Source of the DNA: Pseudolabrys sp.
GTDB taxonomy: Bacteria; Pseudomonadota; Alphaproteobacteria; Rhizobiales; Xanthobacteraceae
DNA: 64,000 bases
NCBI GenBank assembly: GCA_030684935.1
Contig: JAUXXH010000042.1
Coordinates: 1 to 64,000, forward strand
Reading direction: 5' to 3'
The stretch's first letter is position 1, and every line of letters starts with the position of its first letter. Below the pieces are notes generated by a model. That model searched no databases. It saw only the letters and a list, made by a program, of their open reading frames with translations, and was not told the origin of the DNA. Made by a program: the position numbers and the translations under genes. Below, piece after piece: positions 26,986-57,090 of the stretch.

Positions 26986-27663
26986 ATGGCTTTTTCGGTC
27001 AAAATCTGCGGTCTCAAGACCCCGGAAGCACTTGATGCGGCGCTGGAATCCGGCGCCGATCAGGTCGGCTTCGTGTTTTTTGCGCCGAGCCCGCGTCATG
27101 TCGGGCTGGAGGCGGCCCGTGCGCTCGGGCAACGCGTCCTTGGCCGCGCCGCCAAGGTGGCGCTGACGGTCGATGCCAATGACGAGACGCTGGCCGGTAT
27201 TGTTGCGGCGCTGAAGCCGGACATGTTGCAGCTGCATGGCAAGGAAACGCCCGAACGGGTGGTCGCGGTCCGCACCCGCTTCGGCCTGCCGGTGATGAAG
27301 GCGCTGGCGATCGCCGAGCGCGCCGATCTCGCCCCCATTCGTATCTATGCCAAGGTGGTGGACCGCCTGCTGTTCGATGCCCGGCCGCCTAAGGATGCGA
27401 CCCGGCCCGGCGGTCTCGGCAAACCGTTCGACTGGACGCTGCTCCAGGGCATCGACGCCGGCGTGCCCTTCATGCTGTCGGGCGGCCTCGATGCCGGCAA
27501 TGTCGCCGAGGCCTTGCGGATCACCAGCGCCAGCGGCGTCGATGTCTCGTCCGGCGTCGAGCGCGCGCCCGGCGAGAAAGACCCTGACAAGATTCGTACC
27601 TTCATCCGCACCGTGCGGATGCTCGAAGAACCCCTCGATCTCTCCAAGGCGGCTATCGTATGA
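26986..27663 (+). CDS. trpF: Phosphoribosylanthranilate isomerase
   Basis: A 225-residue TIM barrel catalysing the Amadori rearrangement in tryptophan synthesis. The catalytic cysteine lies in [10 protein letters not shown] and the general acid aspartate in [21 protein letters not shown] and [15 protein letters not shown] (phosphate site) and [17 protein letters not shown] are typical. It overlaps trpB by 4 bases (ATGA). Confidence 0.95.
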
Positions 27664-28880
27664 ACGTGCTCCAGCCCAACTCATTCCGCACCGGTCCCGA
27701 CGAACGCGGGCATTTCGGCATCTATGGCGGCCGTTTTGTCGCCGAGACGCTGATGCCGCTCATCCTCGATCTGGAAAAGGCCTATGCCGCGGCCAAGGCC
27801 GATCCGAAATACCGCGAGGAAATGGACGGTCATCTGGCCAACTATGTCGGCCGGCCGTCATCGCTTTATTATGCCGAGCGGCTGACCAAGAAGTTCGGCG
27901 GCGCCAAGATCTATTTCAAGCGCGAGGACCTGAACCACACCGGCGCGCACAAGGTGAACAATGTGCTCGGCCAGATCATGCTGGCGCTGCGCATGGGCAA
28001 GACCCGCATCATCGCCGAAACCGGCGCCGGCATGCACGGCGTCGCCACCGCCACCCTGTGCGCCAAGTTCGGTCTGCCGTGCATCGTCTACATGGGCGCG
28101 GTCGACGTCGAGCGGCAGCAGCCGAACGTGCTGCGCATGAAGATCCTTGGCGCCGAGGTGCGCGCCGTCGAGTCCGGCTCACGGACGCTGAAGGACGCCA
28201 TGAACGAGGCGCTGCGCGACTGGGTCACCAATGTCAGCGACACATTCTACTGCATCGGCACGGTGGCGGGCCCGCACCCCTATCCGGCCATGGTTCGCGA
28301 CTTCCAGTGCGTGATCGGCAACGAGACCCGCGATCAGATGATGGCGCTGGAAGGCCGGCTGCCGGATTCGCTGATCGCCTGCATCGGCGGCGGCTCCAAT
28401 GCGATGGGGCTTTTTCACCCCTTCCTCGACGACAGGTCGGTCGAAATCTACGGCGTCGAAGCGGCCGGCCATGGCGTCGCCACCGGCCAGCACGCGGCCT
28501 CGATCGCGGGCGGCAAGCCGGGCGTGCTGCACGGCAACCGCACTTATCTCCTGATGGATGCCGACGGCCAGATCGAGGAGGCGCATTCGATCTCCGCCGG
28601 GCTGGATTATCCCGGCATCGGCCCCGAGCATTCCTGGCTCAAGGACATGGGACGCGTGCAGTTCCTGTCGGCGACCGACGATGAAGCGGTGGCGGCGTTC
28701 CAGTTGTGCAGCCAGCTCGAAGGCATCATCCCGGCGCTGGAGCCCGCGCATGCGCTGGCGCGGGTGTTCGACCTCGCGCCGCAGAAGCCGAAGGATCACC
28801 TGATGGTGGTCAACCTGTCCGGCCGCGGCGACAAGGACCTGGCCTCGGTCGAGGCCTATCTCGAAGGCAAGAAGACATGA
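27660..28880 (+). CDS. trpB: Tryptophan synthase beta subunit
   Basis: A 406-residue PLP enzyme that condenses indole and serine to tryptophan. The PLP lysine is in the motif HTGAHKVNN, with [11 protein letters not shown] and FKREDLN before it, [14 protein letters not shown] and the phosphate-binding IGGGSNAMG later. The usual trpB-trpA adjacency is interrupted: an antisense DUF559 gene and its flanking repeats (28895-29349) lie before trpA, leaving 490 bases between the two genes. TrpA and TrpB form a channelled complex, so coupled expression would be expected to matter. Confidence 0.96.
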
Positions 28881-28894
28881 GCACGTTCTTCCTT

Positions 28895-28945
28895 CACCTC
28901 TCCCCGCTGGGGAGAGGTCGCGAGCGAAGCGAGCGGGTGAGGGGG
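28895..28945 (+). repeat. Two-hairpin GCGAAGC repeat, copy A (left flank of the DUF559 gene)
   Basis: A 51-base unit. Hairpin one is CCTCTCCCC/GGGGAGAGG with a short loop; hairpin two surrounds the core GCGAAGC; the unit ends GGGTGAGGGGG. It begins 14 bases after the trpB stop. Copy B (29299-29349) is the same sequence in inverted orientation, and a related inverted pair lies at 56955-57090. Confidence 0.85.
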
Positions 28946-28953
28946 TGCGACGT

Positions 28954-29298
28954 TCAAGATGGGCGTAGCGTTCGATCAATCATCTCCAGGACACCGTCCA
29001 AATTCTCGTACACGTCGATGTTGGATACTCGCACGACATGGAAGCCGAAGGCTTCGAGGAATTCAGTTCGTGCGGCGTCGCGGGAAATTTCCGTCGGTGC
29101 GGCGTGTGTCACGCCGTCGACTTCGACAACCAGCTTGCCCTCAATCGTGATAAAGTCCACCACGTACCGGCCGATGGGATGCTGCCGCCGAAACTTCCAG
29201 CGCGCGAGACGGCGCGCCCTAAGCGCTTGCCAAAGCCGGGCTTCGGCGCTGGTCTGGGACACGCGGAGTTTGCGGGCCCTATTTCTGAATCGCTCCAT
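28954..29298 (-). CDS. DUF559 domain protein (Vsr/restriction-endonuclease-like fold)
   Basis: A 114-residue protein, antisense to the trp genes, sitting between trpB and trpA. The DUF559 features are SQTSAEARLWQALRARRL, then FRRQHPIGRYVVDFI, then KLVVEVDGVTHA, then EAFGFHVVRVSN. The D...ExD pattern (VVDF with EVDG) is the catalytic core expected of the PD-(D/E)XK superfamily to which DUF559 belongs, so it looks intact and could be a nuclease. The start codon abuts repeat copy B, so the ribosome binding GAGGGGG is supplied by the repeat, and the stop lies 8 bases from repeat copy A. The coding sequence therefore fills the space between the two repeats. Confidence 0.85.
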   Translation of the reverse strand: MERFRNRARKLRVSQTSAEARLWQALRARRLARWKFRRQHPIGRYVVDFITIEGKLVVEVDGVTHAAPTEISRDAARTEFLEAFGFHVVRVSNIDVYENLDGVLEMIDRTLRPS

Positions 29299-29349
29299 CC
29301 CCCTCACCCGGCTGCTTCGCAGCCGACCTCTCCCCACAGGGGAGAGGTA
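29299..29349 (-). repeat. Two-hairpin GCGAAGC repeat, copy B (right flank of the DUF559 gene)
   Basis: A 51-base unit, the inverted counterpart of copy A at 28895-28945. On the minus strand it reads ACCTCTCCCC, GGGGAGAGGT, TCGGCTGCGAAGCAGCCG and GGTGAGGGGG. The second hairpin is a perfect 7-bp stem around GAA (CGGCTGC-GAA-GCAGCCG). It starts immediately next to the DUF559 start codon and ends 21 bases before the trpA ATG. Confidence 0.85.
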
Positions 29350-29370
29350 TAGCAGAGCCTGACGCCCCGC

Positions 29371-30207
29371 ATGAGCACAACACGCATCGACCGCCGATTC
29401 GCCGCGTTGAAGGACGAAGGCCGCGCCGCGCTGGTGACCTTCACCATGGCCGGCGATCCCGATTACGCGACCTCGTTGGCGGTCGCCAAGGCGCTGCCGA
29501 AAGCCGGCGCCGATGTGATCGAACTCGGCATGCCTTTCACCGATCCGATGGCCGACGGCCCCGCGATCCAGGCGGCCGGCGTGCGCGCCTTGCGCGGCGG
29601 CCAGACCATGATCAAGACGCTCGAGCTGGTGCGCGAATTCCGCAAGGACGACGACGCCACGCCGATCGTGCTGATGGGCTACTACAATCCGATCTACATC
29701 TACGGCGTCGACCGCTTTCTGGTCGACGCCAAGGCGGCAGGTGTCGACGGCCTGATCGTCGTCGATCTGCCGCCGGAGGAAGACGAGGAATTGTGCCTGC
29801 CGGCGCTGAAGGCGGGGCTGAACTTCATCCGGCTGGCGACGCCGACTACCGACGACAAGCGGCTGCCGGCGGTGCTGAACAACACCTCGGGCTTTGTCTA
29901 TTACGTGTCGATCACCGGCATCACCGGCTCGGCTGCGCCTGACGCCGGCAAGGTCGGCGCCGCCGTGGCGCGCATCAAGCGGCACACCAAATTGCCGGTG
30001 GCGGTCGGCTTCGGGGTGCGCAGCGCCGAACAGGCGCGCGGCATTGCCGCGGGCGCCGACGGCGTCGTGGTCGGTTCGGCGCTGGTGGATACAATGCACC
30101 GCTGCTTCGAGAGTCAAGGCAAAGAAGGTGCGGTCAAGGCCGTGACCGACATGGTGTCCGCGATCGCCGAAGGCGTCCGCAGCGCCCGGCAGGTGCCGGC
30201 CGAGTAA
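29371..30207 (+). CDS. trpA: Tryptophan synthase alpha subunit
   Basis: A 278-residue TIM barrel cleaving indole-3-glycerol phosphate to indole. Catalytic glutamate and aspartate are in [32 protein letters not shown] and [10 protein letters not shown] and [11 protein letters not shown] are also typical. The start is preceded by no strong Shine-Dalgarno sequence because the repeat cassette ends 21 bases upstream, so the native upstream sequence, including any coupling to trpB, has been replaced. Confidence 0.96.
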
Positions 30208-56954: not shown

Positions 56955-57022
56955 GTTCACCCTCCCCTGGAGGGGGAGGGTCGGCCGCCGCAGCGAAGCG
57001 AAGGCGGCCGGGGTGGGGTGAA
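56955..57022 (+). repeat. Two-hairpin GCGAAGC repeat, copy A' (ubiE/mutM gap)
   Basis: Outer arms GTTCACCC and GGGTGAAC enclose a first hairpin of C-rich/G-rich arms (CCCTCCCC, GGGGGAGGG) and a second that contains the core GCGAAGC within CCGCAGCGAAGCGAAGGCGG. The design matches copies A and B around the DUF559 gene at 28895-29349 but the arms differ in sequence, which suggests independent members of one family. Confidence 0.8.
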
Positions 57023-57034
57023 CTTCGTCGAACA

Positions 57035-57090
57035 TTCGCCCCCACCCGGTCTGCTTCGCAGACCGACCTCCCCCTCCAGGGGGAGGCGAA
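57035..57090 (-). repeat. Two-hairpin GCGAAGC repeat, copy B' (ubiE/mutM gap)
   Basis: The inverted partner of copy A', 12 bases away. Outer arms TTCGCC and GGCGAA; on the minus strand it contains CCTCCCCCTGGAGGGGGAGG and GGTCTGC-GAA-GCAGACC, a perfect 7-bp stem. No gene lies between A' and B', so this is a cargo-free pair. It ends 11 bases before the mutM ATG. Confidence 0.8.

Follow-up and report, generated by a model that had tools for sequence, protein, structure and literature searches.

A DUF559 gene bracketed by two inverted repeat units was found in the trpB-trpA junction of the window, the whole 64,000-nt stretch of Pseudolabrys sp. DNA analysed here. We read this cassette, with a probability of about 0.7, as a REPIN-like mobile element in its gene-bearing version, partnered by a PD-(D/E)XK-type nuclease. 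DUF559 genes are associated with such units, the two ends of a cassette match, the ends are co-inherited with the protein, gene-less copies exist, sites are polymorphic between relatives, and the copy number of the units is linked to that of the gene.

The inverted arms of the cassette (28896-28945 and 29299-29348) are 50 nt each and 84% complementary. They lie between trpB (27660-28880) and trpA (29371-30207), both named from reading their protein sequences alone, and enclose the DUF559 ORF, which runs antisense on the reverse strand (28954-29298, 345 nt, 114 aa). Unit 1, on the forward strand at the 3' side of the gene, consists of a hairpin (28896-28918, ACCTCTCCCC-GCT-GGGGAGAGGT), a second hairpin that holds GCGAAGC (28919-28935) and a third purine strand (28936-28945, GGTGAGGGGG). 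Unit 2, at the 5' side of the gene, is inverted relative to unit 1 and lies on the reverse strand, with its third strand at 29299-29308, its second hairpin at 29309-29325 and its outer hairpin at 29326-29348. The ATG adjoins unit 2, whose third strand yields GAGGGGG ahead of it, and the stop codon lies 8 nt from unit 1. The repeat-gene-repeat layout, the antisense placement and the unit-derived GAGGGGG, start and stop positions had all been described in the first-pass annotation, and each was confirmed. Folded as single-stranded DNA, the start-side unit gave z = -6.0 and -7.0 for its two strands, and the unit on the 3' side of the gene gave z = -2.0 and -2.9.

A second inverted pair of units occurs in the window at 56960-57086 (no strand assigned). 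It is of the GGGGTGGGG class, gene-less, 127 nt long and MITE/REPIN-like, and it sits just upstream of another ORF, the start of which we take to resemble mutM/fpg. GCGAAGC, which had been put forward as the core of every unit, is present in both cassette units and in both units of this pair. The motif was found 22 times in the window against 34.5 expected, which is no enrichment, and in only 13 of the 82 second hairpins from the own genome and its relatives, so its presence in the cassette units stands and its role as defining core was rejected. Rfam returned one sub-threshold snoRNA match in the window, and a whalefall-1 (RF01762) match at 29300-29350 with 22.4 bits, under the gathering score of 37.

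In each unit, a pyrimidine arm pairs across a short loop with a purine arm to give a perfect hairpin, and there follows a third purine stretch that begins 1-5 nt after the hairpin or after the second hairpin and lies on the gene side in this genus. The reversed orientation, with the hairpin on the gene side and the third strand outside, was observed in several distant taxa (L310, L234, L306, L238). The third stretch mirrors the purine arm, with A answered by A or T. Among 126 asymmetric arms, a mirror fitted better than a direct copy in 77, equally well in 48 and worse in 1; the mirror was perfect in 88 and the direct copy in 21. When third strands were taken from other units as a control, the mirror was better in 706 comparisons, tied in 1364 and worse in 266. 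At the named loci, scored by a looser rule, the preference was weaker than in the genus (79 mirror to 19 direct, with 56 ties). Such mirror symmetry is no product of ordinary duplication. The code of the antiparallel purine-motif triplex is G.GC, A.AT and T.AT. As read from the sequences, the mirror rule is this code in intrastrand form, and the window unit can probably fold into a triple helix.

The triloops of the second hairpins (own genome and relatives) were GNA in 42 of 52 cases, with 38 closed by C-G. The available text of PMC4686876 describes the GNA-triloop class as extraordinarily stable DNA mini-hairpins. The second hairpin appears adapted to DNA. In 53 of 59 cassettes, an in-frame start codon (ATG, GTG or TTG) lay no more than 25 nt from the third strand, and the unit therefore supplies a purine-rich leader. 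At the downstream end, the DUF559 frames of L145, L148, L155 and L158 were seen to read into the unit, with tails such as NPLPQAGEG.

The window protein matched DUF559 (PF04480) with E = 1e-35 and 122.4 bits, against a gathering score of 20.6. Alignment of E. coli YcjD with DUF559 by hhalign gave 100%, and the PDB entry 3hrl, 'Endonuclease-Like Protein', matched with E = 2.9e-21. Similarity of DUF559 to the Vsr profile was weak (hhalign probability 15%, E 0.0018). In 70 DUF559 proteins, D48, D61, H65 and D74 were invariant and E59 was conserved in at least 90%; the invariant columns comprise D48, D61, H65 and ten others. The catalytic role presumably falls among these conserved D, E and H residues, an assignment made from the family. 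In Caulobacter, according to the accessible part of PMC12907096, the DUF559 protein VsrA has been put forward as a Vsr-like repair nuclease, and a DNA damage response depends on it when a methylase is missing. That proposal fits a DNA nuclease.

Eight DUF559 hits were obtained in the own genome. By inspection, seven of them are bracketed by inverted units, whose subfamily varies between genes. In the flank test, the 160 nt upstream of each gene were scored against the reverse complement of the 160 nt downstream, and 658 positions elsewhere in the same loci served as controls. A total of 113 DUF559 places were listed, 77 of them with at least 80 bits; 75 were examined, best scores first (8 from the own genome, 67 from others), with L110 (the L038 place once more) and the fragment L046 omitted, and 74 were scored because L088 lay too close to a contig end. 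Across the own genome and 39 others, 62 of the 74 loci scored above the 99th percentile of the controls and 60 above every control. The median score was 28, versus a control mean of 8.9 and a value of 11.5 when upstream and downstream sequences came from different loci. The 12 failures came mainly from the low-scoring subgroup with long ORFs, from contig ends and from a few other loci; they include L001, whose score of 12.5 falls on the threshold and whose units are plain by eye. Strong loci passed in 61 of 68 cases, and the long-ORF subgroup in 1 of 6 (L044, at the control maximum). This subgroup (L008 and L041-L045) forms a distinct clade with ORFs of about 400-520 aa and scores of about 58-73 bits, and L044 apart it is without unit flanks both by eye and by the flank test.

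Wider samples gave lower pass rates. In a phylum-wide sample, 13 of 29 loci passed and 16 failed, the 29 being among the matches listed from a longer list. Six of 13 plasmid or E. coli loci exceeded all of their own controls and seven failed, the latter including ycjD and loci of Streptomyces, Photobacterium and Azospirillum. Of 80 named DUF559 loci, 61 passed by inverted repeat and 19 failed; only 2 scored above the highest control, because some control windows hold repeats themselves. When strict units were counted, they occurred on both sides at 41 of these 80 loci, on one side at 28 and on neither at 11, as against 4, 23 and 1071 of 1098 control windows. According to their record titles, the passing named loci come from Alpha-, Beta- and Gammaproteobacteria, Deltaproteobacteria, Nitrospirales, Planctomycetota, Chloroflexi, Gastranaerophilales and FCPU426. 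The association of DUF559 with the units is general and reaches far beyond the window, and the expectation that units would flank DUF559 genes more often than controls was borne out. DUF559 hits were found in 28 and 44 plasmid records and one phage record, and a unit of L136 matched three plasmid records; given these counts, plasmids and phages as the source of recent insertions were dropped. The cassettes of L003, L089 and L091 occupy one shared site before an apparent ureC start, and a ureB antisense RNA match (RF02514, 127.6 bits in Rfam) lies beside L003.

Unit class follows the protein across separate sites. With one locus kept per site, and the left label of L085 set by hand, the left and right classes agreed in 28 of 30 dereplicated loci, compared with 7.9 expected and a maximum of 16 in 1000 shuffles. 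On the protein tree, the class changed 9 times for left units and 10 times for right units; in 300 shuffles it changed 15.8 and 17.3 times on average and never fewer than 12 and 13 times, respectively. A Mantel test of protein against unit similarity showed a small effect (0.266, permuted maximum 0.236, 0 of 999 permutations reaching the observed value), and the count of changes on the tree is the better test of co-inheritance.

Gene-less copies were surveyed in 464-487 kb of the own genome, a non-random sample with several stretches on contigs already known for DUF559 or units. Both strands of 464 kb contained 92 purine hairpins, of which 43 had a mirror third strand; a single Markov-3 replicate, made for 400 kb of the 464, gave none. 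In 486.6 kb there were 20 inverted pairs and 6 solo units, and 16 of the pairs measured 98-133 nt. All three pairs longer than 400 nt hold DUF559, and the interiors of the other 17 pairs in this sample showed no DUF559 similarity. Among the latter, a 259-nt pair (L172, 6708-6966) has unexplained content. The density of hairpins per Mb rose with that of DUF559 genes, counted at 80 bits or more with broken copies included (rho 0.82 across 24 genomes of the genus and 0.61 across 16 from other families, both uncorrected for phylogeny). Hairpins were present in all 23 congeners (1 to 188 each), and genus members without a strong DUF559 hit still carry 1 to 30.

These data bear on whether DUF559 is instead a Vsr-like repair or passenger gene that sits between units mobilised by another enzyme and travels with them by linkage only. 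The proposal of VsrA as a Vsr-like repair nuclease, in the part of PMC12907096 at hand, is in keeping with a passenger, as are the DUF559 loci that fail the flank test, and the search for candidate enzymes covered Y1 transposases only. A mere passenger is nevertheless hard to square with the finding that every pair over 400 nt holds DUF559 and that no other gene family was seen in the pairs of this sample, the 259-nt pair apart, and it sits poorly with a unit class that tracks the protein across separate sites and a hairpin density that tracks DUF559 density. We consider it unlikely, while giving it some weight.

A Y1 HUH transposase of the RAYT kind might likewise mobilise the units, as inverted pairs of short palindromes resemble REPINs. 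The own genome has one weak Y1 match (29 bits), on a different contig from the cassette, and PF01797 was found in 0 of 23 congeners, though all 23 have hairpins. A RAYT as the driver was accordingly rejected for this genus, unless an ancestral RAYT acted long ago, and we regard the chance of it as negligible. The analogy with REP and RAYT that had been drawn for the cassette is apt as a way of working.

The trpB-trpA site itself was surveyed in relatives: 60 genomes matched, 30 loci were taken and 29 junctions were readable, and the trp tree has 27 rows. Nineteen of the 29 junctions are empty, among them that of the closest relative, G017; they show an ATGA overlap or, in two cases, TAATGA. 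The empty sites foreseen for relatives do exist. Three junctions carry a DUF559 cassette, in the own genome (G000), G043 and G019; G013 has a gene-less pair, four have other elements and two have an extra ORF. Other palindromic elements, of GTCATTCCGG or GTCATCCCCGC type, were observed at the junctions L058, L059 and L066 of three relatives, so this site takes insertions often. In the trp tree, where G000 and G017 are sisters (100/100), the three cassette hosts interleave with empty ones. The DUF559 proteins of the three hosts group together in a single clade (SH-aLRT 99), and the G043 copy is broken by a stop. Interleaved hosts together with a single protein clade imply that the cassette either was inserted once, long ago, and then cleanly lost several times, or was transferred.

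Seven unit pairs of G000 had a readable junction in G017, where one was shared, two were reduced to a single hairpin and four were empty or otherwise filled. At site M4, G000 has the pair, G017 a solo hairpin, and four other genomes junctions of 19-22 nt, a pattern that reads as a gain and a later partial loss. Between genomes that share more than about 90% identity, no gain was observed. Grouped by the similarity of their flanks, the 60 loci with units in the genus make up 32 sites; many cassettes share one site across species, and hence the gene form moves rarely.

The window cassette is flanked by a direct repeat, ATGAGCAC, on the forward strand, with one copy at the trpB stop (28877-28884) and the other at the trpA start (29371-29378); once the preceding C is counted, the repeat is CATGAGCAC (9 nt). 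It is possibly a target duplication or, by constraint, a conserved start-codon context. Repeats of at least 8 nt flanked 10 of 66 cassettes, a weak excess over the 5.7% of 600 control pairings that gives no consistent signal of target duplication, and the 9-nt repeat of the window lies over a start codon. Taken as a whole, the interpretation in the first-pass annotation held for the unit association, the empty sites and the likeness to RAYT, whereas GCGAAGC as the core and an exact duplication of the target were not supported.

Homing enzymes occur among the Vsr-like nucleases (the EDxHD group), and several DUF559 clades keep one site across species, as would a homing endonuclease gene that copies itself into one fixed target. 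The spread of 60 loci over 32 different site clusters and the existence of gene-less copies with the same kind of ends both speak against such a gene, which we think highly improbable.

The repeats might also be immobile, unstable triplex sites that replication errors delete or change, with loss only, following the instability view of Holder et al. (2015). Alleles in E. coli bear on this. At hrpB-mrcB, full, solo-hairpin, empty and inverted alleles were found in one or two strains each, and at alx-sstT a solo-hairpin allele was found; an 818-base allele at alx-sstT contains no unit and has an annotated ORF without a Pfam match. In strain F9792 (L400, hrpB-mrcB) the unit pair is reversed relative to K-12, with the two unit types exchanged. 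The junctions of the solo hairpins fall within shared 9-nt arms, as in slippage, so solo hairpins require no enzyme. They are consistent with deletion between short direct repeats, and a 'palindrome effect' of this deletion type is reported for E. coli in the available part of PMC4666352. Loss alone is at odds with site M4, where the pattern reads as gain and then partial loss, and matched-end gene cassettes at 32 separate sites need dispersal. An immobile origin is in our judgement improbable.

We therefore return to the REPIN-like element with a nuclease partner. Its two inverted ends, when single-stranded, would fold into an intrastrand purine-motif triplex, often by way of a second DNA mini-hairpin, and the enclosed gene would encode DUF559, a small PD-(D/E)XK-type nuclease; units of this kind minus the gene would make up the gene-less copies of 98-133 nt. 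DUF559 may recognise its own unit class when this is extruded as a single strand, for example behind a replication fork, and may nick or cut beside it. Host repair or replication would then copy or remove the element, and recombination or slippage between the two outer palindromes would leave a solo hairpin. From the folding of the window unit through recognition and cleavage to the route of insertion and movement by DUF559, these steps are ones that we infer. If DUF559 does act on the units, DNA triplex biology would gain a natural substrate and several phyla a source of genome variation, and to our knowledge the cassette would be the first mobile element to rely on a lone PD-(D/E)XK nuclease and triple-helix ends.

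Judged by sequence, the cassette units belong to the known intrastrand triplex repeats BoxC/PIT/TM. They share with BoxC/PIT/TM_ECO the pyrimidine arm, loop, purine arm, 3-nt loop and mirror third strand, as well as the inverted pairs; they differ in being tied to a gene, in having many subfamilies that follow the mirror rule, and in that a second hairpin often replaces the 3-nt loop. In the portion of Holder et al. (2015, PMC4666352) available to us, CD and NMR show that the E. coli motif adopts a triplex fold in vitro, the consensus is CCCTCNCCCN3-6GGGNGAGGGN3GGGNGAGGG, and K-12 has 23 copies that include five inverted pairs, with more variation around them than at control sites. The same portion, which cites earlier work on these repeats by Hoyne et al., reports that clear protection was not seen in an in vivo footprint, finds the motif not to be associated with mobile elements and calls its origin unclear; 'DUF' is absent from the main text as available. 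E. coli TM no. 9 (1,351,204-1,351,239, a motif taken from that portion of PMC4666352) lies 168 bp from ycjD, the K-12 DUF559 gene, which has a unit on one side only; the chance of this proximity is below 1% by rough estimate. The cassette and its units could explain the origin of an old orphan repeat family in bacteria. No publication linking DUF559 to palindromes or triplex repeats was found in a search of mainly open-licence literature, and the combination is, as far as searched, undescribed.

Whalefall-1 (RF01762) has the same order of parts, with a CUCUCC/GGAGAG hairpin, a second variable hairpin and a GGGUGAGG tail. Among 19 further loci, one matched it (L007 1803-1861, 22.6 bits, under the gathering score of 37) and 18 gave no match. 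The accessible text of PMC2864571 describes it as a non-coding RNA of whale-fall sequences only. We put at even odds the broader reading that these elements form a new class of transposable element in several phyla, in which a DUF559 nuclease would move triplex-ended DNA and would have made the BoxC/PIT/TM repeats of E. coli and its kin, with ycjD as a surviving enzyme gene and the whalefall-1 'RNA' as a DNA end.

As far as tested, the cassette is neither a REP/RAYT system nor a homing gene nor a classical IS. With the DUF559/YcjD/Vsr-like endonucleases the window protein has membership of PF04480 in common; elsewhere such proteins are called proteins of unknown function or repair nucleases. 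MITEs of classical IS are similar in that a gene-bearing form is accompanied by short copies that have inverted ends and no gene, and different in that the cassette encloses DUF559 and no known transposase and that no consistent target duplication was found. REP/REPIN-RAYT systems likewise have short palindromes in inverted pairs, a gene between the same palindromes, a unit class matched to the protein and non-coding copies that outnumber genes. The GTAG/CGTC tag at the hairpin foot, a REP trait, was not obvious by eye, and the cassette differs from these systems in its triplex-type ends and in a DUF559 protein of PD-(D/E)XK type in place of the HUH Y1 transposase.
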